A stretch of DNA of 64,000 nucleotides from Candidatus Contendibacter sp. (GCA_029624675.1 JARSSP010000071.1:1-64000), one strand, 5' to 3'. Shown: positions 4,625-49,236, counted from the first letter of the stretch. Notes: a model not told the origin generated them from the sequence alone. Made by a program: numbers and translations.

Positions 4625-4648
4625 GGCCGTTCCGACTGACGACTCCTC

Positions 4649-7550: not shown

Positions 7551-7582
7551 GCGAGCAGCGAAAGAGAGCTTAAGGGGAAAAA

Positions 7583-8188: not shown

Positions 8189-8219
8189 GGAATGGCGGCG
8201 TTAATCCGGAGTGAGGACG

Positions 8220-9755: not shown

Positions 9756-9805
9756 GCGTCATGCCAAGAAAGTGACTCACTCACGCTACCCTGGAGGAAA
9801 CTCGA

Positions 9806-10729: not shown

Positions 10730-10768
10730 CACCCCACCCGATCTCGAACCGGGCGGCTCCTACCCCGA

Positions 10769-11500
10769 CTACCCTGGCGACCCGAAGCCACCATTCGGAT
10801 TTTCGTTCAACCACCCCTCCAAAAAAATCTCGAACCACCGATCCAGCGCGGCGTCGTGGTGGGTATGACGAGCGCGCTGCTCGGCGGCGGATTGCGCGCC
10901 GGGCGCGGTCAGTTCCTTCGCGCCTTCCACCAACCAGTGCTCCAGAATCGCCCGATCCACCTCCGGGTGGAACTGCACGCCGAAGGCATTGGCGCCGTAG
11001 CGGTAAGCCTGGTGCGGAAAGCGTTCGCCGCTGGCCAGCAGTTCCGCGCCGACGGGCAACGCGAAGCCTTCGTGGTGCCAGTGATAGACGTGCAACGGAG
11101 CGTCAAACGTCGCCTGGCCGGCGGCGGTCGGCTCAACCGGGAAATAACCGATTTCCGCCAGCCCCGCCGGATGTGGCTCAACCTTCGCCCCCAAAGCCCG
11201 CGCCAGCAGTTGCGCGCCCAGGCAGATGCCGAGGAACGGTCGGCCGGAGGCCAGCGCCGTGGGAATCCAGTCCAGTTGCGCCCGGATGCCGGGCAGCTTG
11301 CCGTCGTCGTTGGCGCTCATCGGTCCACCGAACACCACCGCGCCGGCGTAGCCGTCCATGCCCGCCGGCAACGGCTCGCCGCTCAGTGGATAGCAACACT
11401 CAAGCGAATAACCGCGTTCCCGCAGCTTGCGCCCGCAGCGGCCGGCGCTGGCGTCGGGCGTCTGCATCACCAGCAGCAGGCGCGGCGATTCGGGCTTCAT
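10769..11500 (-). CDS. Class I glutamine amidotransferase-like protein
   Basis: The 243-residue class I GATase domain resembles GMP synthase-type stand-alone amidotransferases. The nucleophile motif is [16 protein letters not shown], the oxyanion region is [13 protein letters not shown], and the catalytic His-Glu is GVQFHPEVD. The amino acceptor is unknown. The ATG at 11498-11500 overlaps the TGA of the DAHP synthase gene (ATGA), so translation is probably coupled to it. An open frame continuing upstream inside aroF was ignored because of this overlap. A link to aromatic metabolism is suggested only by this arrangement. Confidence 0.85.
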
Positions 11501-12915
11501 ACCTCGCCATCTCCCTCGTGGGTATCCATATCCGCCCCTGTCGCCCGCCGGTAATCCTTGAGGGTTTCGGCGATCAGGAATGCCAGTTCCAGGCTTTGTG
11601 AGGCGTTCAGGCGCGGATCGCAGCGCGTGTGATAACGGTCGGCCAAGCCTTGCTCGGTGATCGCCTGCGCGCCGCCCAGGCATTCGGTGACATCCTGCCC
11701 GGTCAGTTCGAAATGCACCCCGCCCGGAATGCCGCCCTCGGCGCGGTGAATGGCGAAGAACTGCCGCACTTCATCCAGGATGCGGGCGAACGGGCGGGTT
11801 TTATAGCCAGTGCTGGCTTCCAGGGTGTTGCCGTGCATTGGATCGCAGGACCAGACGACCCGTCGACCTTCGCGCCGCACCGCCTGGATCAGCGGCGGCA
11901 GAGCGGTTGCGATTTTATCCGCGCCCATGCGGCTGATCAGGGTCAGTCGGCCCGGTTGGTCATCAGGGTTCAACGCGTCCAACAAGCGCAGCAGCGTGTC
12001 GGGGTCGACGGTCGGTCCCAGCTTGAGGCCGATGGGATTAGCGATGCCACGCATGAATTCGACGTGCGCGCCGTCTAGTTGCCGGGTGCGTTCGCCGATC
12101 CAGAGAAAATGCGCCGAGCCGTCGTACCATTCGCCGGTTTGTGGGTCGCGCCGGGTCAGGGCTTGCTCGTAACCCAGCAACAACGCTTCGTGCGAGGTGT
12201 AGAAATTCACCTGCCGCACCTGCGGATCCGCGCTGGCGTCCAACCCGCAGGCGCGCATGAACGCCAATGTTTCGCTGATGCGGCTGGCCAGGTCGCGGTA
12301 GCGCGCGCCCTGGGGACTGGCGCGCAGGAAATCCAGATTCCATTGCTGGACCCGGTGCAGATCGGCGAAACCGCCTTGGGCCAGCGCCCGTAACAGGTTC
12401 AGGGTCGCCGCCGACTGCGAATAGGCGCGCAACTGCCGGCGCGGGTCGGGCCGGCGAGCCTCGGCGGTGAAATCGAGATCGTTGACGATATCGCCCCGAT
12501 AGCTGGGCAAAGCCGCGTCATCGCGGGTTTCGGTCGGCGAACTACGCGGCTTGGCGAATTGGCCGGCCATGCGTCCGACCTTGACCACCGGACAGGCGGC
12601 GGCAAAGGTCAGGATGACCGCCATTTGCAACAGGACGCGGAAGGTATCGGTGATGGCGCGCTCGTTGAAATCGGCAAAGCTTTCGGCGCAGTCGCCGCCT
12701 TGCAGCAGAAACGCCCGACCAGAGGCGACCTCGGCTAGGTGCTGGCGCAAGGTGCGAATTTCGCCAGCGAATACGAGGGGCAACGAAGTCGACAATCGCT
12801 CCTCGACCTCGGCCAGCGCCGGAACGTCGTCGTAAACCGGCAATTGCGCTGCCGGGCGCCGCCGCCAGCTTGCTGGGGTCCAGAGCGCTTGAGAGTGTGA
12901 CAGGGGTTGGGGCAT
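11497..12915 (-). CDS. Class II 3-deoxy-7-phosphoheptulonate (DAHP) synthase
   Basis: This enzyme catalyses the first step of the shikimate pathway, condensing phosphoenolpyruvate with erythrose 4-phosphate. It belongs to the class II (plant/Mycobacterium-like) family: [13 protein letters not shown] at the N-terminus, [40 protein letters not shown] and [11 protein letters not shown] are all diagnostic. Length from ATG 12915 is 472 residues, normal for the class; a TTG four codons upstream (12927) is possible. It is followed by an overlapping amidotransferase gene. Allosteric behaviour cannot be read from the sequence. Confidence 0.93.
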
Positions 12916-12973
12916 CGGTACATCCAAAAGTTGCGTATGATTCGCGCCAGTCCTGCTGGCCTGAACCGTAGAA

Positions 12974-13064
12974 TAACCGAAGTGGATGGATCATAACCCT
13001 CGCCGATTTCATTGCGGCCTGGCGCGACAACCCGCTGAGCGAGCAGGCGCTGCGAGCGCAATAA
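12974..13064 (+). pseudogene. Relic of the 5' end of the restriction-methylation gene
   Basis: Bases 12974-13060 closely resemble 13538-13620, covering the leader (ACCGAAGTGGA) and the first ~20 codons of the gene at 13556. The relic reads (I)TLADFIAAWRDNPLSEQALRAQ then TAA, against MTPADFIAVWRDNPLSERAGAQ in the intact copy; its start codon has become ATA. The two copies flank the cupin gene. This looks like a broken duplicate left by an insertion or by unequal recombination. Confidence 0.75.
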
Positions 13065-13072
13065 AGCGCCAT

Positions 13073-13141
13073 TTCCATCGAATACGGTCCGCGGGGATAA
13101 TGACACTGTAGATGTGTTAAGACTGTAGCCGTGTTAAGGAG
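13073..13141 (+). promoter_or_regulatory. Candidate promoter and tandem 17-bp repeat upstream of the cupin gene
   Basis: A possible -35 TTCCAT (13073-13078) and -10 GATAAT (13096-13101) are separated by 17 bases. Directly after come two adjacent 17-bp repeats, 13105-13121 and 13122-13138, matching at 15 of 17 positions (ACTGTAG..GTGTTAAG). The second copy runs into the AAGGAG ribosome-binding site. The repeat could be an operator; this is inference from position. Confidence 0.4.
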
Positions 13142-13146
13142 TCATT

Positions 13147-13497
13147 ATGCAACCCACGCGCATCTTCCAAAGCAATCAATATATGCAACCCTCGGACGGG
13201 GAACCGGTTCGGTCGATGATCGTTGAAACCAGGGAAGCGGTTATCGTCGCTTGGCATGTGAAGCCTGGTCAACGAATCAAGGCGCACATTCATCCAGCAG
13301 GTCAGGATACCTGGACCATCCTCTCGGGACATGGCGAATACCAAACTGAGACATCCGGCGAAGCCCATCCGATAGGGGTTGGAGATGTGGTCGTTGCCTA
13401 CCCAGGCGCGGTGCATGGCGTGTACAACAACGGCACGGAACCCTTGCGGTTCATTTCGGTGGTGTCGCCAGCGAATGCCGGACATGAATGGGTTTAA
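13147..13497 (+). CDS. Small single-domain cupin protein
   Basis: The 116-residue beta-barrel protein has both cupin motifs: PGQRIKAHIHPAGQDTWTILSGHGEY carries a His-X-His pair and a downstream Gly, and PGAVHGVYNNG has the third His. Metal binding is therefore plausible. The usual Glu position after HxH appears to be replaced (GQDTW), so the metal site may be non-standard. It has a strong AAGGAG ribosome-binding site. It sits between a broken and an intact copy of the restriction gene 5' end. The substrate is unknown; small cupins of this type may be isomerases, dioxygenases or sensors. Confidence 0.75.
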   Translation: MQPTRIFQSNQYMQPSDGEPVRSMIVETREAVIVAWHVKPGQRIKAHIHPAGQDTWTILSGHGEYQTETSGEAHPIGVGDVVVAYPGAVHGVYNNGTEPLRFISVVSPANAGHEWV

Positions 13498-13555
13498 CAG
13501 GTTGAGTGGTGACGCCTGAGCCATGGAATGACCGAATGACCGAAGTGGACGAATC

Positions 13556-16414
13556 ATGACCCCCGCCGATTTCATCGCCGTCTGGCGTGACAACCCGCTA
13601 AGCGAGCGGGCCGGCGCGCAGCCGTTTTTTCTCGATCTGTGCGAACTGCTGGGCGTCGGCAAGCCGAATGACCCGGAACATTACTGCTTCGAGCGCGGCG
13701 CGACGCGGACCGGCGCCGGGCGCGGCTGGGCGGACGTGTGGAAGCGCGGCTGTTTCGCCTGGGAAAACAAGGCGCCGGGCGGCGATCTGGCGGCGGCTCT
13801 GAAGCAGTTGATGACCTATGCGCTGGCGTTGGACAACCCGCCGCTGCTGGTGGTCTGCGACCGCCTGCGCATCGAGATTCACACCCATTTCACCGGCACG
13901 CCGTCAGAGGTTTACCGCATCCGGCTGGAAGAGATCAGCCAGCCGGAGCCTCTCGCCAGGCTGCGCGCGCTGTTCGAGAACCCGGAACGGTTCCGGCCCC
14001 GCCGCACCGATCACGAGGTCACGCAGGAAGCCGCTGGCCGGTTCGCCGCCATCGCCGCCGCGCTGGCGCAACGGGGCCACGCGCCGCGCCCGGTCGCCCA
14101 TTTCCTGATTCAATGCCTGTTCTGCATGTTCGCCGAAGACGTGGGCTTGCTACCGGCGCGGTTGTTCAAGCGGATCGTTGAGAGGAGCGCCGGCCAGCCG
14201 GAAAAGTTGGCGGCGCGGCTGGCCGAATTGTTCGTCGCCATGCGCGCGGGCGGCGATTTTGTGCTGGAGGATATCGCCTGGTTCAATGGCGGGTTGTTTG
14301 AGACCGCCGCGCCGTTGGCGCTGACCGAAACCGAAGCGACGGCGCTGCGGGCGGCGGCCCGGATGGACTGGTCGGCGATTGAACCTTCGATTTTCGGCAC
14401 GCTGTTCGAACGCGGCCTGGACCCGGCGTTGCGGGCGCAACTGGGCGCGAATTTCACCGATCCTCAAACCATCCGCAAGATCATCGAGCCGGTGGTGGTC
14501 GAACCGCTGGCGGCGGAGTGGGTGGCGGCGCGGGCGGGCATCGCCGAGTTTATGGAGCGTTATCGCGCCGGCGGCGCGGGGGCGAAAAAAGCGCGTCAGG
14601 CCGCCGAGGGAATTTTTCTGCGGTTTCTGGAACGGCTCAAGCATTTCCGGGTGCTGGACCCAGCCTGCGGTTCCGGCAATTTTCTGTATCTGGCGCTACG
14701 GGCGCTGAAGGATTTGGAGCACCGGGCTAATCTCGACGCCGAGGCGCTGGGATTGCACCGGCAGTTGAGCATTGAGACCTGCCCGCGCAACGTGCTGGGG
14801 ATCGAACTCAATCCCTACGCCGCCGAACTGGCGCGGGTGACGGTGTGGATCGGCGAGATTCAGTGGATGTTGAAGCACGGCTACGACATCCGCCGTAACC
14901 CGATTCTAGCGCCGCTGGATCATATCGAATGCCGGGACGCGGTGTTGAACCCGGACAGCGGCGAACCGGACTGGCCGGAAGCGGACGCGATCATCGGAAA
15001 TCCACCGTTTCTGGGCGGTTCCAAGCTGCTGCGGGAGTTGGGCGACGAATACACAGGCCGGTTGCGCCAGCTTTATGAGGGACGAGTGCCGGGCGGGGCG
15101 GATTTAGTGTGCTACTGGTTCGAGAAGGCGCGCGCCCAGATCGCGGCGGGACCAGCGAAGCGCGCGGGATTGGTGGCGACCAACTCGATTCGCGGCGGCA
15201 CGAACCGGAAGGTGTTGGAGCGAATTCGGGAAAGCGCCCGGATTTTCACAGCGTGGAGCGATGAACCCTGGGTCAACGAGGGAGCGGCGGTGCGGGTGTC
15301 GCTGGTGTGTTTTGGCGCCGTACTCCCCTCGCCCTTTAGGAGAGGGGGCGGGGGTGAGGGCGCGACGCTCGATGGCCAGCTGGTCACGGAGATTTACGCC
15401 GATTTGACGGGTCGGGCGTTTGATGTGAGCGAGGAGGATTTGACGCAGGCCGTGCCCTTGATGGAGAACGGTAACCTGGTGTTTCAAGGCCCCGAAAAAA
15501 ATGGTGCGTTCGATATTCCCGGTGATTTAGCTCGGCAATGGTTGGCGCTACCCAACCCGCATGGACGCCCGAACAGCGATGTTTTGCATCCTCGCTGGAA
15601 TGGGCTGGATTTAACCCGCCGCCCTTCGGATGACTGGATTATCGACTTTGGCGTGGGTATGACCGAGGCCGAGGCGGCGTTGTATGAAAAACCATTCGAC
15701 CACGCTCTTGTGCGCGTTAAACCCGAAAGAGACCGAAATCGGGATGCTAGCCGTAGAAAACATTGGTGGCGGTTCGGGCGAACCGGCGAGGATGTGCGTA
15801 CCGCACTGGGGGGTCTTGCGCGCTATATCGCCACGCCGCATGTGTCCAAGCATCGAATTTTCGTCTGGCTGCCCACGAGCGTACTACCCGACAAGATGTT
15901 GATCGTCATCGCCCGTTCCGACGCCACTACCTTTGGCGTTTTGCATTCCCGCTTTCATGAACTTTGGTCGCTGCGCCTGGGGACCAGCCTCGAAGATCGT
16001 CCCCGCTACACCCCCACTACCTGTTTCGAGACCTTCCCGTTTCCGGAAGGCATCCTGGCCGATCTCGATCCGGACGCGCGTTTCCCGGCCATCGCCGAGG
16101 CCGCGCGCCGCCTGAATGAACTCCGCGAAAACTGGCTCAACCCGCCGGAGTGGGTGGAGCGGGTTCCCGAAATCGTTCCCGGCTATCCGGATCGGCGAAT
16201 TCCCAAACCGGAGTTCGCCGCCGAACTGAAAAAGCGCACCCTGACGAATCTCTACAATGCCCGGCCAGCGTGGCTGGTCAACGCCCATCGGCAACTGGAT
16301 ACAGCAGTGGCGGCGGCGTATGGCTGGAGCGATTACACGCCGGACCTGCCCGATAATGAAATTCTACGGCGGCTGTTGGCGCTTAATCTGAAGCGCACCG
16401 GGACGGGGTATTGA
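13556..16414 (+). CDS. MmeI-like single-chain restriction endonuclease/DNA methyltransferase
   Basis: This 952-residue polypeptide has the layout of type IIL/IIG enzymes. An N-terminal nuclease-like region (ADVWKRGCFAWENK, residues about 59-72) fits a D...ExK catalytic core. A helical linker follows, then an N6-adenine methyltransferase with SAM motif DPACGSGNFLYLALRAL (about 370) and catalytic IIGNPPFLGGSK (about 480), and a C-terminal target-recognition/helical part. All key motifs are intact, so both cutting and modification are possible. No separate specificity subunit or partner lies beside it, as expected for a self-contained enzyme. A dispersed palindrome is inserted in frame near residue 590. 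A relic of its 5' end lies upstream. Confidence 0.85.
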   Translation: MTPADFIAVWRDNPLSERAGAQPFFLDLCELLGVGKPNDPEHYCFERGATRTGAGRGWADVWKRGCFAWENKAPGGDLAAALKQLMTYALALDNPPLLVVCDRLRIEIHTHFTGTPSEVYRIRLEEISQPEPLARLRALFENPERFRPRRTDHEVTQEAAGRFAAIAAALAQRGHAPRPVAHFLIQCLFCMFAEDVGLLPARLFKRIVERSAGQPEKLAARLAELFVAMRAGGDFVLEDIAWFNGGLFETAAPLALTETEATALRAAARMDWSAIEPSIFGTLFERGLDPALRAQLGANFTDPQTIRKIIEPVVVEPLAAEWVAARAGIAEFMERYRAGGAGAKKARQAAEGIFLRFLERLKHFRVLDPACGSGNFLYLALRALKDLEHRANLDAEALGLHRQLSIETCPRNVLGIELNPYAAELARVTVWIGEIQWMLKHGYDIRRNPILAPLDHIECRDAVLNPDSGEPDWPEADAIIGNPPFLGGSKLLRELGDEYTGRLRQLYEGRVPGGADLVCYWFEKARAQIAAGPAKRAGLVATNSIRGGTNRKVLERIRESARIFTAWSDEPWVNEGAAVRVSLVCFGAVLPSPFRRGGGGEGATLDGQLVTEIYADLTGRAFDVSEEDLTQAVPLMENGNLVFQGPEKNGAFDIPGDLARQWLALPNPHGRPNSDVLHPRWNGLDLTRRPSDDWIIDFGVGMTEAEAALYEKPFDHALVRVKPERDRNRDASRRKHWWRFGRTGEDVRTALGGLARYIATPHVSKHRIFVWLPTSVLPDKMLIVIARSDATTFGVLHSRFHELWSLRLGTSLEDRPRYTPTTCFETFPFPEGILADLDPDARFPAIAEAARRLNELRENWLNPPEWVERVPEIVPGYPDRRIPKPEFAAELKKRTLTNLYNARPAWLVNAHRQLDTAVAAAYGWSDYTPDLPDNEILRRLLALNLKRTGTGY
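15322..15362. repeat. C-rich palindromic repeat inserted in frame within the restriction gene
   Basis: The stretch has a CTCCCCTCGCCCTTTAGG left arm and a GAGAGGGGGCGGGGGTGAGGG right arm. It is of the type that normally lies between genes (compare 491-535 and 3911-3940). Here it is translated as PSPFRRGGGGEG and keeps the frame open, between VSLVCFGAV and ATLDGQLVTEIY. The low-complexity Gly/Arg insert is unlike the surrounding protein. Confidence 0.7.
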
Positions 16415-16616
16415 ACGATTTTCGCGGAAGCTTGTTTGTAGATGATTTATGAGTAACTTGATGTTCCGCGATGATTATCCTTGACACACGCATTCGGCCG
16501 CGCTGGCTGATCCAGGGCGGTAGAGGGTCGCCATCGAACATTCTGACCGCTATCCAATCCGAGAACCGGGTTGCGGTTTCCGCTGTTTCCTGCTTCCTGA
16601 TTAGCGTTCGATCACC

Positions 16617-17528
16617 ATGACTAGAATCCTGACCGCCTGGCATCCATCGCCCTATCTGCTGTTGGTGCTGACCACCCTGTTCTGGTCCGGCAATTTCGTG
16701 CTGGGGCGGGCGGTGCACACCGTGTTCACCCCGTTCACCCTGTCGTTCTGGCGCTGGGCCGTGGCGCTGGCGATCCTGTTGCCGTTTGTTTGGGGTTCGT
16801 TGCGCCAACAGGGGCCGCTGATCCGCCGGCATGGGCCGATCTTGCTGCTGCTGAGCATCCTCGGCGTGGTCAACTTCAACACCTTCGTCTACATCGGCCT
16901 GCAATCCACCACCGCCACCAACGCCCTCATCATGTTGTCGGTGACACCGGTGTTGATCGTGGCGCTGTCGTTCCTGCTGCTGCGCCAGACCGTGACCGGC
17001 TGGCAGGCGCTGGGGATTCTGATTTCGCTGGCGGGGGTGCTGGTGATCGTCGGCCGAGGCGAAATGGGAGCATTGCTGGCCCGCCAGTTCAACCCCGGTG
17101 ATTTATGGGTGTTGGCGGCGGTGCTCAGTTGGGCGCTGTACTCGGTTTGCCTGCGTTGGCGGCCAGCCGAACTCAAGCCGTTGGATTTTCAGGCCGCGAC
17201 CATGCTGATCGGAATGACGATCCTGACGCCGCTGTACGGCTGGGATTTGGCTCACGACCGCACCGTCGCCGTCAACATCGCCACCGTGGCCAGCATCTTG
17301 TATCTGGCCTTGTTTCCCTCAATTCTGGCCTACATCTTCTGGAACCGGGCGGTGGTGGAACTGGGCGCCAACCGCACCGGCCAGTTCCTGCATCTGATGC
17401 CGGCGTTCGGCGCGGTGCTATCCATGGTCTTTCTGGGCGAGCGGCTGTACGGCTTTCACGCTGCCGGCATCGCGCTGATCGCGTTGGGGATCTGGCTGGC
17501 GACGGTGTATGGGCGCAAGGCGGATTGA
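16617..17528 (+). CDS. EamA/DMT-family membrane transporter
   Basis: The 303-residue integral membrane protein has about ten hydrophobic helices in two EamA repeats, each opening with the family pattern (LLVLTTLFWSGNFVLGRAV near the start; LWVLAAVLSWALYSVCLR near the middle). Members export amino acids, nucleosides or other metabolites; the substrate cannot be told. The start at ATG 16617 lacks a strong ribosome-binding site. The roughly 200 bases upstream (16415-16616) contain a TTGACA at about 16484 but no convincing -10, and no other feature was found there. Confidence 0.87.
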   Translation: MTRILTAWHPSPYLLLVLTTLFWSGNFVLGRAVHTVFTPFTLSFWRWAVALAILLPFVWGSLRQQGPLIRRHGPILLLLSILGVVNFNTFVYIGLQSTTATNALIMLSVTPVLIVALSFLLLRQTVTGWQALGILISLAGVLVIVGRGEMGALLARQFNPGDLWVLAAVLSWALYSVCLRWRPAELKPLDFQAATMLIGMTILTPLYGWDLAHDRTVAVNIATVASILYLALFPSILAYIFWNRAVVELGANRTGQFLHLMPAFGAVLSMVFLGERLYGFHAAGIALIALGIWLATVYGRKAD

Positions 17529-17544
17529 GGGGAAACGCGAAGGG

Positions 17545-18549
17545 TCACCGCGACGGTTCTGGCGGTTCGCGATTTGCGGTCGCCAGAACGGCGTCGACAT
17601 GGCCGATGGCTTGAACCCGGCGTTCGGCGAACGAACCCGTCAATAGCCGGTACGGCCGGCGCCACGCTTCCAGTTCAGCAACGAAGGCTCGGTGCATCCA
17701 GACGCGGATCGTTTCGCCGTCACGGGTGCCGTCCTGGACGAACGGCGTGTCCACGTCGGTCAACAGATACAAATCCGGGCGGCGATGACGGGCGGCGATG
17801 GATTCCACCGCGGAGGAGCGGTCGCCCATATAGCGCCAATGCCAGATCACCGTGGCGAAGGCGTCGGTGTCGCAGATCAAGACCCGGTTGGCCCGGCGGG
17901 CGGCTTCATCCTCGTAGGCGCACTGGGTTTGGGCAATGCGAACGAACTCCTCGGCGGTCCAGTGGCTGGCCTCATCGCCGCCGGCCAGCTTGCGTTCGGT
18001 GTGGTCGCGGCCGTATTCCGGAACCCAGACGGTGTGGTAATGCTCAGCCAGCGCCTGGGCCAGCGTGGTCTTGCCGGTGGATTCGGCCCCGACCAGGCAG
18101 ACGCGCCGGGCGTAATAGCCCCGCGTGGGCGGCTCCAGATAATCCCAGCAGGCCAGCGGATCGGCCCGGACTTGCGTTCCCGAGATCGGCACGGCCCGCC
18201 GGGCCTTGTCCACCTGAACGTGTCGGCAGCCCAGAAAATGGGCGAAGCGGTCGCCGTAATCCTCGGAGCTGAAGACCACGTCCGGGACAAAACCCAGCCA
18301 GCGGATGGAATGCTCGGCCCAAACCTTCGAGTCGTTGGGGTCAAGCGTGTCATCGATCAGCAACACCTGAGCCTCGGGATGAACCTCTCGCAACCAGGCG
18401 GCGCGCAACGCGCCAGCGGGTTGTTGCGCGGGCTGACCACAGACGATCACGTGCAGCTCGTCCACCCGCGCCAGGGCCGTGTTGATCAGAAAATGATGAC
18501 CCCGATGCGGCGGGTAGAACTTGCCGACGATCAGCCCGCGATTAGCCAC
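17545..18549 (-). CDS. nadR: Bifunctional NMN adenylyltransferase / ribosylnicotinamide kinase (NadR without repressor domain)
   Basis: NadR converts nicotinamide riboside to NMN and then NAD. The nucleotidyltransferase domain opens the protein (MANRGLIVGKFYPPHRGHHFLI, with the HxGH motif) and carries VPISGTQVRADP. The kinase domain has P-loop CLVGAESTGKTTLAQAL and DTDAFATVIW. Its 334 residues lack the N-terminal helix-turn-helix present in E. coli NadR, so a repressor role is not expected. The 5' end overlaps the end of pnuC by 8 bases, so transport and phosphorylation of the riboside are co-expressed. Confidence 0.92.
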   Translation of the reverse strand: MANRGLIVGKFYPPHRGHHFLINTALARVDELHVIVCGQPAQQPAGALRAAWLREVHPEAQVLLIDDTLDPNDSKVWAEHSIRWLGFVPDVVFSSEDYGDRFAHFLGCRHVQVDKARRAVPISGTQVRADPLACWDYLEPPTRGYYARRVCLVGAESTGKTTLAQALAEHYHTVWVPEYGRDHTERKLAGGDEASHWTAEEFVRIAQTQCAYEDEAARRANRVLICDTDAFATVIWHWRYMGDRSSAVESIAARHRRPDLYLLTDVDTPFVQDGTRDGETIRVWMHRAFVAELEAWRRPYRLLTGSFAERRVQAIGHVDAVLATANREPPEPSR

Positions 18550-33468: not shown

Positions 33469-34989
33469 ATGATCACGCTGGGCGAGATCGCGGCGGCGGC
33501 GGGCGCGCGCCTGCAAGGCAGCGACGCCGCGACGATCATTGTCGGCGTGGCGCCCTTGCAGAGCGCTGGACCCGGGCAGATCAGCTTTCTGACCCATCCT
33601 CGCTACCGTTCCTATTTGGCGACCACCCAGGCCACCGCGGTGATCCTGTCGCCCGAGGACGCCAGGGATTGTCCGACACCGGCGCTGGTGGCCACCCATC
33701 CCCATGTCGCCTATGCCCGGGCCGCGGCGCTGTTCGAACCGACCATCGAATCGCGGCGAGGCATTCATGCCACCGCATGGATCAGCCCCACGGCGAGCGT
33801 CGCCGCCGACGCCTGGATCGGACCGCATTGCGCGGTGGAAGCGGGCGCGGTGATCGAATCCGGGGTGATCGTCGGTCCGGGCTGTGTGATCGGCGAACAG
33901 GCCGTGATCGGCGCCGGGAGCCGGCTGGTGGCGCGGGTGACGATCTGTCACCGGGTGCGACTGGGACATCGGGTGCTGGCGCATCCGGGCGTGGTGATCG
34001 GCGGCGACGGCTTCGGCCTGGCTCTCGACCAGGGAAATCGCTGGCTCAAGGTACCCCAACTGGGCGGCGTGGTGATCGGGGACGATGTCGAGATCGGCGC
34101 CAACACCACCATCGATCGCGGCGCGCTGGAAGACACGGTGATCGAGGACGGGGTCAAGCTGGATAATCAGATTCAGGTGGCCCACAACGTCCACATCGGC
34201 GCCCACAGCGCGCTGGCCGGCTGTGTCGGCATCGCCGGCAGCGCCCGGATCGGTCGGCACTGCATGGTGGGTGGGGGCGTTGGCATCGCCGGTCATCTGG
34301 AAATCGCCGACGGGGTTCAGATTACCGGCATGTCGCTGGTCACCCAGTCCATTACCCAGCCGGGCACGTATTCCTCAGGGCTGACGGTGGAACCCAACCG
34401 GCTTTGGAACAAGATCAGCGCCCGCCTGCGCCGGCTGGATGAGTTGTTCCGGCGGCTGACCGCCCTGGAAAGAAAAATCGATCAAAACAGCGCCTGGCCA
34501 TCACGCATCCAAGATGACAAGGATCGAAGCGGAACCATGAACGAGTCAATGGACATTCAGGGGATTTTGGAATACCTGCCGCACCGCTACCCGTTTCTAC
34601 TCATTGATCGGGTGCTGGCGGTCGAGCCGGGACAGTCGCTGACCGGCCTCAAAAATGTCAGTTTCAACGAACCCTTTTTCCTGGGGCATTTCCCCCAGCG
34701 GCCAATCATGCCCGGCGTGCTGATTTTGGAGGCGCTGGCGCAGGCGACTGGCATTCTGGCGTTTAAGAGCGAGAAGGAGAAGCCCGATCATCGTTCCATG
34801 TATTACCTGGTGGGCGTGGACAACGCCCGCTTCAAACGGCCGGTGGGACCGGGCGATCAACTGATCCTGGAGGTTCGGCTGGATCGGATCAAGCGGGGCA
34901 TCGGTAAATTCATCTGCGAAGCCAAGGTGGACGAGCAGTTGGCGGCCTCCGCCGACCTCATGTGCGCCAAGCGGGACATCGACCTGTGA
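33469..34989 (+). CDS. lpxD: LpxD-FabZ fused reading frame: UDP-3-O-acylglucosamine N-acyltransferase plus 3-hydroxyacyl-ACP dehydratase
   Basis: One uninterrupted frame of 506 codons covers lpxD and fabZ, which are separate genes in E. coli. LpxD (residues 1 to about 340) adds the second hydroxyacyl chain in lipid A synthesis: uridine-binding N-domain ([13 protein letters not shown]), left-handed helix repeats, catalytic His in QVAHNVHIG, and the usual end [17 protein letters not shown]. About 16 linker residues ([16 protein letters not shown]) look like translated intergenic DNA. FabZ follows from residue 357. No stop lies between them. Either a true bifunctional protein is made, or FabZ is also started internally at ATG 34537. 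Both active sites look intact. Confidence 0.85.
34537..34989 (+). CDS. fabZ: FabZ portion of the fused frame: 3-hydroxyacyl-ACP dehydratase, possible internal start
   Basis: The hot-dog fold dehydratase domain of fatty acid synthesis runs [26 protein letters not shown] to the TGA at 34987-34989. Catalytic His is in LPHRYPFLL and Glu in [14 protein letters not shown] 34537 is in frame with lpxD and preceded by AAGCGGAA, a weak ribosome-binding site, so separate translation is possible. As a separate protein it would have 150 residues, the normal FabZ length. Its TGA overlaps the GTG start of lpxA. Confidence 0.85.
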
Positions 34990-39304: not shown

Positions 39305-41083
39305 ATGCTCACCATGCGTTTCCCCTACGGCATCGCCGATTTTCGCAAAATCCGCGAAGGCGATTACTTCTACGTGGACCGCACCGACCGGATTCCGCTG
39401 ATCGAAGAGGCTGGCAGTCAACTGCTGTTCCTGCGCCCGCGCCGGTTCGGCAAAAGCCTGTGGCTATCGACGCTGGAAAACTATTACGACCTGGCGCGGG
39501 CGGACGACTTTGACCGACTGTTTGGCGGGCTGAAGATCGGCCAGAACCCGACGCCGCTGCGCAACCGCTATTTCATCTTTAAACTGAATTTTTCCGTGGT
39601 GGACCCCTGGGGCGATGCCGACGCGATCGCCGCCTCGCTCCACCGTCATATCAACAATGCCATTGAAGCGTTCGCCGCGCGATACCGGGAGGTGCTGAAG
39701 ACGCCGATTGAATGTCATCCGACCGATGGGTTATCGTCGCTGAGCCGGTTGCTCACCGCCATCTCAACGACGCCCCACAAGCTGTATGTGCTGGTGGACG
39801 AATACGACAACTTCGCCAACGAAGTGATGATCAGCCCGTTGCACGGGACGCATCGCTACGAAGAACTGGTGCAAGGCGAAGGCACGATCAAGACCTTTTT
39901 CAAGGCGCTCAAGGCCGGCGCGGAAGGGCGGGGGATTGACCGGGTGTTTCTGACCGGGGTGTCGCCGGTGGTGCTCAGCGACATCACCAGCGGCTACAAC
40001 GTGGCTGAGGACCTCTCGCAGCGGCCCCGGTTTCATGACCTGTGCGGCTTTACCGAAGCGGAATTGCGCGCTGCCCTGGAAGCCACCGCGGCGGCGCACG
40101 ATCTCGACGCCGGGCCAGTGGACGCCGCCCTGGACCTGATGCGGGACTTCTACAACGGCTATCGGTTTACGTCGCAACGCGAGGAGCGGGTCTATAACCC
40201 CACCTTGGCGTTGTACTTTCTCAAACGTCTGGTTGAGGACGGCGCTTTCCCGGAACGATTACTCGACGACAACCTGGCGATGGACCGCAACTGGATTCAG
40301 TACGTCGCCCGGCTGCCGCACGGCGAGACCCTGGTCAACGCCACGTTGAACGACGCCGAACCGCTGGCGGTGGCGCAACTGGTCAACCGCTTCGGGGTGC
40401 TGGACATGCTCACCGCCCCACGCGACCCGGACTTCCTCGCCACCCTGCTCTATTACTTCGGCGTGCTGACTTTGGCCGGACGGGATGCGTTGGGCAAGCA
40501 GCAACTGACGATTCCCAACCAGGTGATCCGCAAGCTGTACGTTGAGCGATTGCGGGAACAGACGCTGCCGCGCTACGAAGACCAGGAACAACGGCAACGG
40601 GTCGCCGAACGGTTCTACGCCACCGGCGACCTGGGTCCGCTGTGCGGCCTGCTCGAACAAACCTGGTTCAAGGTCTTCGACAACCGGGATTTGCGCTGGA
40701 GTAATGAACTGGTGATCAAGACCGCCTTTCTGGCGGTGCTGTTCAACGACGCTTTTTATGTGATGGACTCGGAACCGGCGCTAGGCCGGGGCTACGGCGA
40801 TCTGTTGCTGCGCGTGCGCCCGGACATGCGCCCATACGCCCTGCTCGATCACCTGCTGGAATTCAAGACGGTCACACTCAAGGCGGTGGGCCTGACCAGC
40901 GTCGAACTGGCGGCGAAGAGCCGGGAGGAGTTACGCGCCTTGCCGGTGGTGGCGGAGAAGCTGCGCGCGGCGGAAACCCAACTGGCCGCCTATCGGGGGG
41001 CTCTGGAACGCACCGGTGGCGAGCCGCTCAAGTTGCATACCCATGCGGTGGTCGGCATCGGGCTGGAGCGGCTGGTGTGGTAA
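39305..41083 (+). CDS. AAA-ATPase-like/PD-(D/E)XK protein, second copy type
   Basis: The 592-residue protein has the same architecture as the one at 8220 but belongs to a clearly different sub-group. It opens FPYGIADFRKIREGDYFYVDRT, has P-loop variant RPRRFGKSLWLST, Walker B LYVLVDEYDNF, and a C-terminal nuclease-like segment DHLLEFKTVTL. The function is unestablished in this family. The start at ATG 39305 or ATG 39314 cannot be decided; no good ribosome-binding site is seen. It is placed directly after the hairpin region that follows the kinase gene. Confidence 0.85.
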   Translation: MLTMRFPYGIADFRKIREGDYFYVDRTDRIPLIEEAGSQLLFLRPRRFGKSLWLSTLENYYDLARADDFDRLFGGLKIGQNPTPLRNRYFIFKLNFSVVDPWGDADAIAASLHRHINNAIEAFAARYREVLKTPIECHPTDGLSSLSRLLTAISTTPHKLYVLVDEYDNFANEVMISPLHGTHRYEELVQGEGTIKTFFKALKAGAEGRGIDRVFLTGVSPVVLSDITSGYNVAEDLSQRPRFHDLCGFTEAELRAALEATAAAHDLDAGPVDAALDLMRDFYNGYRFTSQREERVYNPTLALYFLKRLVEDGAFPERLLDDNLAMDRNWIQYVARLPHGETLVNATLNDAEPLAVAQLVNRFGVLDMLTAPRDPDFLATLLYYFGVLTLAGRDALGKQQLTIPNQVIRKLYVERLREQTLPRYEDQEQRQRVAERFYATGDLGPLCGLLEQTWFKVFDNRDLRWSNELVIKTAFLAVLFNDAFYVMDSEPALGRGYGDLLLRVRPDMRPYALLDHLLEFKTVTLKAVGLTSVELAAKSREELRALPVVAEKLRAAETQLAAYRGALERTGGEPLKLHTHAVVGIGLERLVW

Positions 41084-43550: not shown

Positions 43551-44072
43551 CTGAACGCCAGAATCGCCACCGCGCCGCCGCGCGGTTTCACCCTGCTGGA
43601 AATCCTGGTGGTGCTGGTGCTGATCGGTATCATCACCAGCTTCGCCCTGCTATCGGCCGGCGGCGGCCCACGCACGCGATTGGCGGAAGAAGCGCGGCGA
43701 CTGGCGGCGTTGGTGGAACTGCACCAGCAGGAAGCGATTTTGAACGGCGCAACCCACGGCATCCAGTTCGACCGTGCCGGCTATACCCTGCTGACCCTGG
43801 GCGAGAACGGCGAATGGCAACCCGCCACCACCGATACCTTGATCCATCATGCCTTGCCGGAGGACATCGTCCTGAGCCTGTGGGTCGAGGATCGGCCCGT
43901 CGATCTGAAAATCGCCCGCAAGCTGCCGCAGGTGCTGCTGCTGGCCAGCGGCGAGGCCACCGAATTCGTCGTCGTGTTCGGCTTCGCCGACGACCCGTCC
44001 CTGGATGCAGCGCGCTATCGGGTGGCGGGCGACGCGCTGGGTCGGCTGACGATGGGCGAGGTGACCCCGTAA
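43551..44072 (+). CDS. gspH: Type II secretion minor pseudopilin GspH, non-canonical start
   Basis: This is a minor pseudopilin with prepilin motif RG|FTLLEILVVLVLIGIITSFALL and a GspH-like body (RLAALVELHQQEAILNGATHGIQFDRAGYTLL). The frame between the gspG TAG (43524-43526) and the prepilin motif contains no ATG, GTG or TTG. CTG 43551 is the most plausible start and would give the 12-residue leader (M)NARIATAPPRG. Alternatives are ATC 43563, read-through of the gspG stop (same frame), or a sequence error. About 173 residues from CTG. The next genes are on the opposite strand. Confidence 0.75.
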   Translation: MNARIATAPPRGFTLLEILVVLVLIGIITSFALLSAGGGPRTRLAEEARRLAALVELHQQEAILNGATHGIQFDRAGYTLLTLGENGEWQPATTDTLIHHALPEDIVLSLWVEDRPVDLKIARKLPQVLLLASGEATEFVVVFGFADDPSLDAARYRVAGDALGRLTMGEVTP

Positions 44073-44120
44073 AGCGCCCAGCCGATTTCATTGCAACGCA
44101 AGGCGCGCGCTTCGACCGGT

Positions 44121-44783
44121 TCAACCGGGGGACAAGGCGTCGCTCGATATGTCCAGCGCCTCGGCGCCGCGCGCCACATAAACGCCATGCGGTCGCGTAT
44201 CCTCCAGCACCACCGCCCCCGCGCCCACGACGCCATGCGCGCCGATCCGGGCCTTGTTGCGAACCGTGACCCCGGTTCCCAGAAAGGCGTGCGACTCCAC
44301 GATCACGCCGCCGCCAAGCATAACTCCGGAGCCGAGAAAGCAATGGTCCTCGATGACCGTGTGATGGCTGACGATGCAACCGCTGCCGATGAACACGTCA
44401 TCGCCGATGCGCGAAAAGGGTTGCAGCAGCGAGCCGGCGCCCACCTTGCAGTTGCCACCCAGCTCGAGGCCAGCCCAGAGCGTCGCCGTGGGACTGACAT
44501 AGCTGATCAGCCGGTATCCCAGCGCTCTCGCCTCGGCGCATCGCCGCGCGCGCAACCGATTCACCTCCGCATAACCCACGGCGATCATCATTTCGTAGTC
44601 ATCGGGCGGATAGCGCCTCGCGATATCCTCGAACGGCACGACGGGCAAGCCGGCCAACCGATCGGCGCGGAGATACTTCGCGTCCACCGTGAACGCCTCG
44701 ACGCAATGCCACGATTCCCGCGAGAGATGGTAGTGCATCACCTGAGCGGTGGAACCAATCCCGAACAGAACGACCCTTGCCAT
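44121..44783 (-). CDS. NeuD/PglD-like hexapeptide acyltransferase
   Basis: The 220-residue protein has an N-terminal Rossmann-like half (ARVVLFGIGSTAQVMHYHL, then GLPVVPFEDIARRYPPDDYEMMIAVGY) and a C-terminal left-handed helix with hexapeptide repeats. The likely catalytic His lies in CIVSHHTVIEDHCFLG. This is the layout of NeuD/PglD enzymes that acylate nucleotide-activated sugars, usually with acetyl-CoA. It starts 10 bases after the adenylation gene and ends the antisense cassette. The acceptor is unknown; here it may use the carrier-bound acyl group, which is speculative. Confidence 0.85.
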   Translation of the reverse strand: MARVVLFGIGSTAQVMHYHLSRESWHCVEAFTVDAKYLRADRLAGLPVVPFEDIARRYPPDDYEMMIAVGYAEVNRLRARRCAEARALGYRLISYVSPTATLWAGLELGGNCKVGAGSLLQPFSRIGDDVFIGSGCIVSHHTVIEDHCFLGSGVMLGGGVIVESHAFLGTGVTVRNKARIGAHGVVGAGAVVLEDTRPHGVYVARGAEALDISSDALSPG

Positions 44784-44793
44784 GCGCCCGTCC

Positions 44794-46683
44794 TCACACC
44801 CACCCAATCCGCCGTAGAACGGCCGCCATGTCGGTCCGGTCCAGTGGTTCATCGCGCCGCGACGGGTTCACTGGCCGCTCGGCTTCGAACCTCGATTCCT
44901 TGGGATTGCCCGTCAGCATCTTGGAAATTTCCTCCGCCTGGACAGCCACGGTCGGATGTCTGGCGACCCACAGCGGGGCCAGTCGCAAACCGAACCGGCG
45001 CTCCAACGCCGTCGCGAGCGCCGCCGCCGCCAAACTGTCGCCACCGTGCTCGACGAACGTGCGGCCGTCGCTTTCGACCGGCCGCCCCAGCACGGCCGAC
45101 CACGCCGACCGCAATGCACCGATCAACTCAAGCGCGCTCGACGCGCCACCTACGCCCGCCGGGCCGTCGCCCGCCAAGGCAGTTCTGCAAACCGACTCCA
45201 GCGCACGGTAATCGGTCTTTCCGGTCGGCCCCAGCGGCAGGGATTCGATATCGACGAACAGGGTCGGAATGGCCGCGCCCGTCAGCCGCTGTTCAAGCCG
45301 CTGGCGAATCACCTCCCCGGTGGCAAGCGCAGCGTCGCGCAACAGGCAGGCGCACAGTCGCAACTGTCCAAACGCATCGGGTACGCCAACCACGGCCGCC
45401 CGCTCGATGCCCTGGATACATTCCAACTCGCGTTCGACCGCCGTCGGCATGACTCGCTCGCCGCGAATCTTCAATTGACGGTCGCCACGACCGTGATGTT
45501 CGAGCAGACCATCCTCGTTCCACCGGCCAAGATCGCGGGTCCAATAAACGCGCCGTGACGGATCGTCCGCATCCGCCCTGAGCCGGCCGTCAACTCCATC
45601 ACCGCTCAGTTCAAGCGCGATATGCGCGGACGTGACGACGATTTCTCCTAAAGCGCCGTCGGGGACGGCCCGTCCATCGGGGTCGAGCAAGGCGACCGAC
45701 CGCGACGGCAGTGGCCGCCCCACCGGAATCTGGGCCGCGCTCGCCAGTTCGCGCAGCGGCGCTCGATGCACCGCGACATGCAAGGTTTCCGTGCTCGAAT
45801 AATGCACGTAGGCCATGCATTCCGGATGCACCAAAACCGCGATCTTACCCAGCGCGGCGGCGGAGATCGGTTCGCCTCCAACGATCACCTGCCGAACCTC
45901 GGACAAACGACCCAGTCCCTTGCAGGCGCGGGCGCACGATTCAAGCACGGTCGGCGTTCCATGCAAGATGACCGCCCCGCTGTCGGCGATGCGGCGATAG
46001 ACCTGCGTGAAGGTCTCCCTGCGCAGGTCGAAACAGACCAACCCAACTCCACCTAACAGAGCGCGCCAGAACCCATTGATACCCGCCGCGCTGCTGGGTC
46101 TTGCCAAGCTGGCGACCCCTGTTCCGGGGCGATAATCATAGGCAACCCCCATTTCCTGGGCGTGCACGACGATTGCGTCGCGTCCAATGATCGCATGGGT
46201 GCGATGCCCCGACGATCCGGAGGTGGAGATGCAGTGCAAGCGCCGAACCCCGCCATTTCGTTGCGCGGATTCATCAATACCTTCTGGAATCGACGACGGC
46301 GGGTTTTGAGAAAGAACGACAACCCGGATTCCGTCCTTTTCACGCAACCGATCGGTCAACGTTCGCGTGCTCAGACACAGTGTTATCCGGAGTTGGCGCA
46401 GTACCGACCGGATCTGTTCATCGGGAAGCTCCGGGTCGATGGGCACGGCCATGACGCCGGCCTTCATGCACCCGACCAGCGCGGCAAAGTAGGCGCGGCT
46501 TGGAGGGATGAACACTCCGACGGGTCGATCGACGCCCGACGGGCCAAGCCGGGCCTCGATCGTCTCGGCCCATGCCGCGAGCCGCGCCAAGGTCAGCTTG
46601 CCGTCGGGAGCGTCGATGGCGGGCGCGCCGGGAGCAGCATGGTCAACCACGCGATTGAACGTCTCTTCAAGTCGATCGGTCAC
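44794..46683 (-). CDS. Freestanding adenylation domain with peptidyl/acyl carrier domain
   Basis: The 629-residue NRPS-like protein has no condensation or thioesterase domain. The adenylation part (about 1-490) has core motifs STSGSSGHRTHAI, VHYSSTETL, VYWTRDLGRW, GRGDRQLKIRGERV and the catalytic-Lys motif LGPTGKTDY. The carrier domain (about 525-600) has the phosphopantetheine serine in FVEHGGDSLAAAALA. It should activate an amino or other carboxylic acid as AMP ester and load it on its own carrier. GTG 46683 starts just before the homologous region; an ATG at 46830 would overlap the upstream radical SAM gene. Acid specificity was not deduced. Confidence 0.85.
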   Translation of the reverse strand: MTDRLEETFNRVVDHAAPGAPAIDAPDGKLTLARLAAWAETIEARLGPSGVDRPVGVFIPPSRAYFAALVGCMKAGVMAVPIDPELPDEQIRSVLRQLRITLCLSTRTLTDRLREKDGIRVVVLSQNPPSSIPEGIDESAQRNGGVRRLHCISTSGSSGHRTHAIIGRDAIVVHAQEMGVAYDYRPGTGVASLARPSSAAGINGFWRALLGGVGLVCFDLRRETFTQVYRRIADSGAVILHGTPTVLESCARACKGLGRLSEVRQVIVGGEPISAAALGKIAVLVHPECMAYVHYSSTETLHVAVHRAPLRELASAAQIPVGRPLPSRSVALLDPDGRAVPDGALGEIVVTSAHIALELSGDGVDGRLRADADDPSRRVYWTRDLGRWNEDGLLEHHGRGDRQLKIRGERVMPTAVERELECIQGIERAAVVGVPDAFGQLRLCACLLRDAALATGEVIRQRLEQRLTGAAIPTLFVDIESLPLGPTGKTDYRALESVCRTALAGDGPAGVGGASSALELIGALRSAWSAVLGRPVESDGRTFVEHGGDSLAAAALATALERRFGLRLAPLWVARHPTVAVQAEEISKMLTGNPKESRFEAERPVNPSRRDEPLDRTDMAAVLRRIGWV

Positions 46684-46735
46684 GAACGGGCCGCTTTCAA
46701 GTGGGGATCTGGGTTGCGCCAACCAGCGCCGTCGC

Positions 46736-47737
46736 TCACGAAAGGCTGGGAGCGAGGGGCGCGGCTTCCGGTTCGCCGTTCCGCGATACTCGGCGCTGGC
46801 CACCCTCGGTCTCGAACAGCGGACAGCCATTCAAAAAAGGGCGACAATTGTACAGAATTGTTTTTTGCAGCATGGATTGCCTCTTTCGCTGTATTTCCTC
46901 AAAGGAATCCAACGCAAAATGACCAAGATAGCTATGCCCTGCGATATAATTGCACGTCATCACATCCATATTCGCATCAACATAAATTTTCTCCAGACTC
47001 GCGCAGGACCTGCCTCGCGCATCGGAGCAAGGCGTCTCGGGAAAACAGAGCACTTCCAAAAAATCGTCACCTGCCCTCATCTCTCGATACAACTCGCGTA
47101 AAGCATTCTTTATCGATTCCACCGCAAGACTCGCATCGAAATATCGACCACGACCGGATGGAATCAAAGGCTTGACTTGGAATTTGTAAACTCCCATGGC
47201 CTTGGCGAATTTAAAGCAGGTCATCAATTCAGCCAAATTGTATCGGCAAAGCGTGAAACGTAAAATGACCTTCAAATCATGCTCCAAGGCATTGCGAATT
47301 CCATTCAAGAGCTTACGAACCGAGAAATGATCGCCCCGCATCCTGCGCAAGGTATCCTCATCCAATGAATCCATTGAAATCTTCACGATCCCAATTCCAG
47401 CATCCTTCATTTTTTCCGCCAAGTCCGATGAAAGCAAAATACCATTAGTATTGACGCCACAGGGCACCGCAACGGCCGATATTGATCGAGCAATTTTAAG
47501 TACCCCTTCCGTGCAAATCAAGGGTTCTCCTCCAGTCATGCGGACTTCCGTAATTCTGATTCCCAATCCAGCCGATTCACGCCGCCAATCCGCAAAGCGA
47601 GATAGAAACAGATCAATGTCGAGATTCCGGCTTTTTTTCGGCGAATCACTGTTCATGCAATGAAAACAGGCAAAATTGCACCGATCGGTTAATTTCAACT
47701 CGATTCCCAAGCGATTCGGCGCGGGAGTTTGATTCAT
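46736..47737 (-). CDS. Radical SAM protein with SPASM-like C-terminal cysteines
   Basis: The 333-residue protein has the radical SAM cluster motif CNFACFHC (CX3CX2C) after LGIELKLTDR, and the SAM motif MTGGEPLI. The C-terminal region has Cys in GRSCASLEKIYVDANMDVMTC and in YNCRPFLNGCPLF, which fits an auxiliary-cluster SPASM/twitch domain as in peptide-modifying enzymes. ATG 47737 forms an ATGA overlap with the preceding radical SAM gene; an alternative ATG is at 47758. DNA here is visibly more AT-rich than the surrounding gsp genes. The substrate is unknown; no precursor peptide gene is adjacent. Confidence 0.85.
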   Translation of the reverse strand: MNQTPAPNRLGIELKLTDRCNFACFHCMNSDSPKKSRNLDIDLFLSRFADWRRESAGLGIRITEVRMTGGEPLICTEGVLKIARSISAVAVPCGVNTNGILLSSDLAEKMKDAGIGIVKISMDSLDEDTLRRMRGDHFSVRKLLNGIRNALEHDLKVILRFTLCRYNLAELMTCFKFAKAMGVYKFQVKPLIPSGRGRYFDASLAVESIKNALRELYREMRAGDDFLEVLCFPETPCSDARGRSCASLEKIYVDANMDVMTCNYIAGHSYLGHFALDSFEEIQRKRQSMLQKTILYNCRPFLNGCPLFETEGGQRRVSRNGEPEAAPLAPSLS

Positions 47738-48543
47738 GGCCTTGCCTTCCCTTTCCATCGATTCAATGCCTGCCTGTTGATGGCCAGGGCTTTTGGCAGA
47801 GTGTCGATACCGCCATAGGGTTCGTTCCGAAGCACGTGTCCCAGCGTCAGATAGACCATCGGATAGCCAAGGTCATCGAGATCAACAGCTAGGTATCCAA
47901 GCCTCTTCGCTCTTTTCTCGGGTTTTTTTTCCAATTCGATGCAGTAGGTCGGCACTTCGCCAAGCGGAGCAAGGTAGGATTTGGCGGCTTCATGGTCGCC
48001 CTTGAACGCCACGTCGAAATGTCGCCCCGGAATCCCGCCGCGGGCGACGCAGTGATCCAGAAAAGCTCGCGCTCGACGAAAAGCGACGCGCTCAAGGTCA
48101 TCGAAACTCGCTCTATCACAAGGTATGTCGGAAGCTCTCAGTGCACCGACGACATGGTGTCGATCCAGGGACAAGCGCACCGTGACCTGCGCAAAAGACA
48201 GGAAGAAGGTCAACCGGTGTCGCCAATCCGGCTGGCCGACCCAGGATCCGTTGGTAAACAGAATCACTCGATTTTCAGGAAGCCGTGAGGCAAGAACCGC
48301 CAACATGTTCGGTAAATCAGGATGCAAGGTCGGTTCTCCCCCCGACAGGTTGAGAACGCCCTTGAAGCGTTCTTCAGCCAGAAGGTCCACGATGCTTTCA
48401 AAATCACCGATCGACAAGACGCCTCCACGCGAGGGACTACTTTTTGTGCAACAGGAAGGGCATCGAAAATTGCATTCACCGATGATTCTTATGGAAACCT
48501 TCGGGTCCTCATACGAACTTGCACCTTGAACCAAAGTTGGCAT
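47734..48543 (-). CDS. Radical SAM protein, first gene of the antisense cassette
   Basis: The cluster motif is CNFRCPSC (CX3CX2C) in VSIRIIGECNFRCPSCCTKSS, and the SAM motif is LNLSGGEPTLHPD. The C-terminal half lacks an evident SPASM cysteine set. ATG 48543 (269 residues) was chosen because a candidate promoter at 48614-48643 would place the transcript start downstream of the earlier ATGs at 48639 and 48615. AAGG precedes it. The gene overlaps the next radical SAM gene by four bases (ATGA). Function unknown. Confidence 0.82.
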   Translation of the reverse strand: MPTLVQGASSYEDPKVSIRIIGECNFRCPSCCTKSSPSRGGVLSIGDFESIVDLLAEERFKGVLNLSGGEPTLHPDLPNMLAVLASRLPENRVILFTNGSWVGQPDWRHRLTFFLSFAQVTVRLSLDRHHVVGALRASDIPCDRASFDDLERVAFRRARAFLDHCVARGGIPGRHFDVAFKGDHEAAKSYLAPLGEVPTYCIELEKKPEKRAKRLGYLAVDLDDLGYPMVYLTLGHVLRNEPYGGIDTLPKALAINRQALNRWKGKARP

Positions 48544-48613
48544 TATCCCGGCCTTAGCTCTGTTTGGAACGGACTGGCTCCCCTGGGATCGAACAAACAA
48601 CGTGTTATCTTGC

Positions 48614-48643
48614 ATAATAGAATTACCGTCCCGGTCCATTCAA
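48614..48643 (-). promoter_or_regulatory. Candidate promoter of the radical SAM cassette
   Basis: On the minus strand TTGAAT (48643-48638), an 18-base spacer and TATTAT (48619-48614) fit sigma-70 (-35 four of six, -10 five of six). It lies in the divergent region between the cassette and gspI, giving the cassette its own transcription against the gsp operon. Confidence 0.45.
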
Positions 48644-48762
48644 GCCCGCCGCCTACCCACGCCCCGATCGCGGCTCCATTCGCGGCACGATGGTCGGCCA
48701 GCCCTTGCCCGGCATCGATAATCCAATTCCGCGCTACCCCGTCGGACGGCCAGATTCCGTAC

Positions 48763-49236
48763 ATGAAGCGCACTCATGGTTTTACCCTGCTGGAAGTGCT
48801 GGTGGCGCTGGCGGTGCTGGCCATCGCCATGGGGGCAATCATCCACGCAGCCACCCAAAGCATCAATACCACCGCCACTCTGCGCGATCGAACCTTCGCC
48901 GGCTGGGTCGCCCGCAACCAAATCAACGCCTTGCTGCTGGAGTCGAAACCCTGGCCCGAGGAAGGCTCTCGCGCGGGCAAGGCCGAACTGGCCAACCGGG
49001 TCTGGCACTGGGAGGCGCGGTTCCACACAACCGACGATCCAAATCTGCGCCGCCTTGAACTCACGGTGCGCGCCAGCGAGGGGAGCGCGGAACTCGGCAA
49101 GCTGATCGCCTTCAAGGGCAAGCCACCGGAGCCATCCACCGATGCGACCAGCCAGCCATCCGGAACCGCGGACAAACCGACGGCGATCCAGGAAGGGCAA
49201 ACGCCGACGCCCCGACAGCCACATCCCGCGCCATGA
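48763..49236 (+). CDS. gspI: Type II secretion minor pseudopilin GspI
   Basis: The 157-residue minor pseudopilin has prepilin site HG|FTLLEVLVALAVLAIAMGAIIHA followed by the GspI-like ATLRDRTFAGWVARNQINALLLE. The Pro/Thr-rich tail (about 120-157) is longer than usual for GspI. ATG 48763 was selected because the wider open frame upstream lies in the divergent non-coding region. No strong ribosome-binding site. It is the first gene of the gspI-N run, which needs its own promoter or read-through past the antisense cassette. Confidence 0.9.
   Translation: MKRTHGFTLLEVLVALAVLAIAMGAIIHAATQSINTTATLRDRTFAGWVARNQINALLLESKPWPEEGSRAGKAELANRVWHWEARFHTTDDPNLRRLELTVRASEGSAELGKLIAFKGKPPEPSTDATSQPSGTADKPTAIQEGQTPTPRQPHPAP

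Follow-up and report, generated by a model that had tools for sequence, protein, structure and literature searches.

A four-gene cassette lies between gspH and gspI

The window analysed here (the whole stretch of 64,000 nucleotides, contig C71) comes from a Candidatus Contendobacter genome of 4.74 Mb. Between the type II secretion genes gspH and gspI, we confirmed the four tightly packed minus-strand genes that a previous sequence-only reading had reported there: two radical SAM proteins, an adenylation-carrier (A-T) didomain and an acyltransferase of the NeuD/PglD family. On the minus strand the order is rSAM1 (47734–48639, with a start at 48639 or 48615; a radical SAM protein of 301 aa, PF04055, E 4e-10), rSAM2 (46736–47737; a MoaA/SPASM-like radical SAM protein of 333 aa, PF04055, E 1.2e-20), the A-T didomain (44794–46683; AMP-binding PF00501, E 2.6e-36, and phosphopantetheine carrier PF00550, E 1.8e-12) and the NeuD-like protein (44121–44783; a NeuD/PglD/VioB-family hexapeptide acyltransferase of 220 aa, from TIGR03570 and an alignment with PerB). 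The described spacing of four to about 50 bases is seen as a 4-base ATGA overlap between rSAM1 and rSAM2, a gap of 52 bases between rSAM2 and A-T, and a gap of 10 bases between A-T and NeuD. rSAM1 and rSAM2 are translationally coupled, and the two enzymes probably act as a pair.

To the left of the cassette lie metX, metW, gspG and gspH (43608–44072, plus strand; TIGR01708, E 1e-19; start probably further upstream). To the right lie gspI (48760–49236, plus strand; TIGR01707, E 1.8e-26), gspJ and gspK. The names metX, metW, gspJ and gspK are those that we take to apply from recognition of the sequences.

Elsewhere in the window, a single 506-aa open frame (33469–34989) joins LpxD to a FabA/FabZ-like dehydratase domain, which are normally separate neighbours. 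Two AAA-ATPase_like (PF09820) copies are found at 8211–9755 and 39305–41083, the first with a PD-(D/E)XK nuclease domain, and an MmeI-type restriction-modification protein of 952 aa is encoded at 13556–16414.

Conservation and base composition of the cassette

The same cassette is found at the same place in a sister species, the Candidatus Contendobacter MAG SCELSE-2-Con (contig JARSSO010000055.1; hereafter G007, with the window genome as G000). Protein identities between the two species are 84, 75, 86 and 93% for rSAM1, rSAM2, A-T and NeuD, respectively. The corresponding dN/dS values (Nei-Gojobori) are 0.16, 0.20, 0.25 and 0.19, similar to those of the gsp genes (0.16–0.30); for each cassette family, conservation and dN/dS rest on two sequences. 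Purifying selection acts on all four cassette genes and, on that basis, all four appear to be functional in both species.

The G+C content is 47–57% across the radical SAM genes compared to 61–68% across the A-T gene, the NeuD gene and the gsp flanks. Whole-gene values are 0.54 and 0.48 for the radical SAM genes and 0.65 for A-T and NeuD, and the corresponding GC3 values are 0.56 and 0.52, and 0.72 and 0.79. The AT-richness reported for parts of the radical SAM genes thus does not extend to A-T and NeuD, where G+C is like that of the gsp flanks. Foreign base composition is confined to the radical SAM pair, and a mosaic origin of the cassette is possible.

A sigma-70-like promoter had also been placed at the outer end of the cassette. 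A match is present on the minus strand (48643–48614, 9 of 12), but the scan gave three such matches, compared to 1.3 ± 1.1 expected. The −10 element overlaps the MQDNTLFVRSQGS codons, which, by inspection, differ from those of G007 at synonymous sites only. Translation of rSAM1 therefore starts at or before 48615, and a transcript initiated from this −10 element would start downstream of the rSAM1 start codon and lack it. We do not consider this match a credible promoter for rSAM1.

Insertion into the type II secretion operon

We compared the gspH–gspI region in eight genomes of the genus, in all of which gspI is a single-copy gene. In six of the eight, gspH and gspI overlap or adjoin without an insert, and the usual arrangement is an overlap of ATGA or GTGA. 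The other two, G000 and G007, have the cassette between gspH and gspI. In the window, the gspI start is ∼120 bp from the rSAM1 start and the overlap with gspH is lost. The proposal that the cassette split the operon is supported by this comparison of spacing in relatives, with gspH and gspI uninterrupted in all six of the other genomes. On the basis of gsp identity, G000 and G007 are the closest pair (GspI 85% versus 63–80%). Since this places the two together and the six others are uninserted, the simplest account is that the cassette was inserted once, in the ancestor shared by these two Contendobacter species. An assembly join, the artefact that had been raised for this locus, is very unlikely, as the same junctions occur in two independently assembled genomes, on contigs of 220–238 kb.

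At the left junction (44070–44095, plus strand), the sequence GTAAAGCGCCCAGCCG resembles the first 15–20 bases of gspI in uninserted relatives, ATGAAGCGCCCGTCCGG. The match is short and its significance modest, with a random 45-mer equalling the G007 score in 0.9% of trials and the G000 score more often. It is possible that this likeness represents a remnant or a duplication of the target site. None of the ORFs encodes a transposase, and terminal inverted repeats were not found at the cassette ends; a transposon was rejected on these grounds. The low G+C content of the radical SAM pair would fit the horizontal acquisition suggested previously, and we leave it at that because no donor was found.

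No connection between the cassette and type II secretion is evident. The direct coupling of gspI–K to gspH is gone in both of the cassette-bearing species, and the promoter scan listed no plus-strand promoter in the 120-base spacer (48640–48760).

The radical SAM proteins

Both rSAM1 and rSAM2 scored above the cut-off for the radical SAM superfamily (PF04055), with motifs that are identical in G007. The CX3CX2C motif that had been read in each protein is present (CNFRCPSC, CNFACFHC): in rSAM1 it occupies residues 56–63, with GGEP at 100–103, and in rSAM2 it lies at the N terminus, with a GGEP motif also present. In the C-terminal half of rSAM1 no relative was detected and there is no SPASM/twitch cysteine set. 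In rSAM2, three C-terminal cysteines are kept in G007 (C246, C263 and C306 of alignment A2), possibly for an auxiliary cluster. Neither protein matched a SPASM model in the profile search, and no B12-binding domain was detected in either. AlphaFold models from two-row alignments gave pLDDT values of 33 and 55, too poor for fold searches, and the substrate class of the radical SAM proteins is therefore unconstrained by structure. A viperin-type defence function was rejected; the PADLOC viperin model (pVip, NF038283) gave 55.6 and 28.6 bits against a cut-off of 180, and the matches span the shared radical SAM core only.

The best scores for rSAM2 were to the MoaA, NirJ and peptide-maturase families, and peptide maturation is the usual role of paired radical SAM proteins that have SPASM-type domains. 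Both points would suit an alternative where the radical SAM pair modifies a ribosomal peptide or protein, with A-T and NeuD adding an acyl cap. However, neither rSAM2 nor rSAM1 reached an equivalog cut-off of the peptide-maturase models, there is no fitting precursor gene (the two widest gaps measure 52 and ∼120 bases, and the second is poorly conserved), and the cassette contains no RRE/PqqD domain, peptidase or transporter. Peptide or protein maturation is thus improbable in our judgement. A RiPP system with paired radical SAM maturases was rejected specifically: no conserved small ORF was seen, there is little room for one, and a PqqD/RRE domain is lacking.

A weak similarity of rSAM2 to cytosylglucuronate decarboxylase (7vob, E 8e-6), together with the action of NeuD on sugars, raises another alternative, that the radical SAM pair acts on a sugar nucleotide (like DesII or cytosylglucuronate decarboxylase) and that A-T and NeuD only supply the acyl group. 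We consider this decidedly improbable; the similarity to 7vob is weaker than that to MoaA, SkfB or PqqE, and the redox partner in the parallel G007 locus (below) is a P450, and enzymes of this type are known to work on carrier-tethered acids.

The A-T didomain and the NeuD-like acyltransferase

The A-T protein has an AMP-binding domain, the C-terminal subdomain of the AMP-binding domain and a phosphopantetheine site. In both species it has the A10 lysine (GPTGKTD) and the carrier serine (GGDSL) of an NRPS adenylation-thiolation didomain; the start codon is GTG in G000 and ATG in G007. An alignment with LgrA places an alanine in the Asp235 column (GrsA numbering), with the same residue in G007, so that neither species has the aspartate of an alpha-amino-acid-activating A domain. 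We take the A-domain code to be roughly A-A-N-H-I-G-(H/N)-H-V-K, from a hand reading by GrsA positions; the Asp235 column was read directly. Because Asp235 is missing, the A-T protein probably takes a substrate other than an ordinary alpha-amino acid. The genome also encodes a phosphopantetheinyl-transferase-type (ACPS) protein, which scored above the family cut-off.

The NeuD-like protein scored 163.4 bits against TIGR03570 (NeuD_NnaD), where the cut-off is 160.8, a narrow margin obtained with a longer 243-aa ORF. It has a histidine that aligns with His141 of the perosamine N-acetyltransferase PerB, a position at which 4ea7, 4eaa and 4eab differ.

Distribution of the cassette and parallel A-T and NeuD loci

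We searched 84,980 species genomes with rSAM1 using a k-mer scan, which detects close relatives only, and found a single relative, that in the sister species. Outside G000 and G007, there were no full-length relatives of rSAM1 among 59 relatives, 274 Gammaproteobacteria and 398 Pseudomonadota, and none of A-T or rSAM2 among 398 Pseudomonadota per query. The full four-gene set was not found in plasmids. The recurrence of the set outside gsp loci, which the sequence-only reading had looked to for support, was therefore not observed at this scale of searching; the half that recurs is A-T plus NeuD, once, in G007. Mycobacterial and Nonomuraea plasmid relatives of rSAM1 were rejected as they have only the radical SAM core in common and their loci are unrelated. 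Among viral contigs there was no relative of rSAM1 or A-T, and rSAM2 gave only weak radical SAM core matches. We found no described pathway with the same gene set, as had been stated before, and our literature searches turned up no paper on a radical SAM protein with NeuD and a carrier protein, or on radical SAM with Contendobacter.

The nearest kin of NeuD outside the genus are in glycan loci with WbqC, DegT and glycosyltransferases, on several plasmids and in Pseudomonadota genomes. Of five plasmid loci, four are clearly glycan clusters, in which WbqC is accompanied by glycosyltransferase or sugar-nucleotide genes, and the fifth (Neorhizobium) has a glycosyltransferase. At 15 further Pseudomonadota loci, where NeuD was recovered in the ORF picture, the neighbours were mostly glycan-type. 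BLAST identified no A-T or radical SAM relative in any of these 15 loci, a negative that is softer for several GC-rich loci in which the ORF picker took wrong frames.

The second A-T and NeuD pair in G007 (contig C15, locus L072) is 28% (A-T) and 48% (NeuD) identical to the cassette proteins. Here, the radical SAM pair is replaced by a P450, a PTPS-family protein and a cytidine-deaminase-like domain, the last of which forms the C-terminal end of the A-T protein itself. The second A domain likewise lacks Asp235, and the pair is ∼5 kb from a TPR/GT41 glycosyltransferase.

The gene set of L072 (G007:C15:15001–35000) is itself unusual, with NeuD, A-T/deaminase, PTPS-family, P450 and TPR/GT41 genes at 9488–17873. 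Locus L073 (G004:C38) has GT41/TPR, DegT, two NeuD, a TauD dioxygenase, PylC-like, WbqC and BKACE genes at 4200–12789. L073 and the G007 P450 cluster apparently share a chromosomal place, with enolase nearby.

A proposed role in glycan acylation

The reading that we prefer, and on which we are evenly balanced, is that the cassette carries out biosynthesis of a tailored acyl group, with transfer from a carrier to an amino sugar that forms part of a surface or protein glycan. The main evidence for this mechanism is the pairing of A-T and the same type of NeuD with different redox enzymes on G007:C15; the carrier serine, the A10 lysine and the acyltransferase histidine are also kept. From its motifs, A-T would adenylate a carboxylic acid and load its own phosphopantetheine arm. 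The radical SAM pair would then tailor this acid on the carrier or, with lower probability, the acceptor sugar, given the parallel with the P450 and the precedent of novobiocin biosynthesis, where A-T-tethered substrates are tailored by P450s (PMC7966384). Judging by its family and neighbourhoods, NeuD would take the completed acyl group off the carrier and attach it to an amino sugar or a sugar hydroxyl, and the acylated sugar would enter a surface or protein glycan. The acyl donor of the NeuD-like protein would likely be carrier-bound. There is a precedent in the Dlt and Alm systems, which hand carrier-bound D-Ala or Gly to glycopolymers or LPS (PMC3783018).

The substrate, acceptor and product named here are predictions from sequence. 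The acceptor is guessed from the relatives of NeuD because there is no glycan gene inside or beside the cassette, which counts against a glycan. Two general tendencies also count against our proposal: structurally known NeuD enzymes mostly use acetyl-CoA, and the usual substrates of SPASM/twitch radical SAM enzymes are peptides or cofactors. The earlier assignment to a small-molecule or glycan modification pathway stands in outline, with the product being conjectural.

The lack of a glycosyltransferase in the cassette would also be consistent with a small diffusible natural product and no glycan, where an amino or aryl acid loaded by A-T is tailored by the radical SAM proteins, and is then either acylated by the NeuD-like protein or set free by it as an amide or ester. 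Free-standing A-T modules tailor bound acids in novobiocin and nikkomycin biosynthesis (PMC7966384). However, there is no exporter, resistance gene, regulator or thioesterase within the cassette, the NeuD kin are in glycan loci and the second A-T and NeuD pair is near a GT41 glycosyltransferase. We therefore consider a diffusible product unlikely.

Returning to glycan acylation, we suggest tentatively, and with some doubt, that the cassette may be a new glycan-decoration route, in which A-T carries an acid other than an alpha-amino acid, two radical SAM proteins rework it on the carrier and NeuD transfers it to an amino sugar. If true, NRPS-style carrier chemistry and radical SAM tailoring would be joined to glycan decoration in a system of only four genes, compact enough for reconstitution in vitro. 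Together with the P450/PTPS/deaminase version in G007, the cassette would then be one instance of a broader plug-in scheme, in which A-T plus NeuD is combined with exchangeable redox tailoring enzymes. The locus is also a clean case of a biosynthetic cassette surviving within a core secretion operon of sludge bacteria, where matrix glycans matter for granule formation.

Comparison with known systems

As in DltABCD and AlmEFG, where an adenylating enzyme, a carrier and an acyltransferase put an acid onto an envelope polymer (PMC3783018), the cassette encodes predicted counterparts of all three. Unlike those systems, its A and T domains are fused, the A domain lacks Asp235 and there are two additional radical SAM enzymes. 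The sole cassette acyltransferase is a soluble hexapeptide-repeat protein (NeuD) rather than an MBOAT or LPLAT membrane acyltransferase, and because of this difference we do not class the cassette with Dlt/Alm.

The A-T modules NovH/NovI, NikP1/NikQ and CysH are likewise free-standing, with the bound acid tailored before use (PMC7966384). In contrast, the cassette has radical SAM proteins rather than a P450, a NeuD-type acyltransferase, and neither a thioesterase nor an NRPS assembly line. CysS of cystobactamid biosynthesis provides an example of radical SAM tailoring within an NRPS-type pathway (PMC7966384), but is cobalamin/B12-dependent, whereas rSAM1 and rSAM2 have no detected B12-binding domain. 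Finally, the cassette NeuD shares its domain layout, family score and catalytic histidine with the NeuD/PglD/PerB sugar N-acyltransferases (TIGR03570), but differs from them in being coupled to a dedicated A-T protein and radical SAM pair, with a donor that would likely be carrier-bound.
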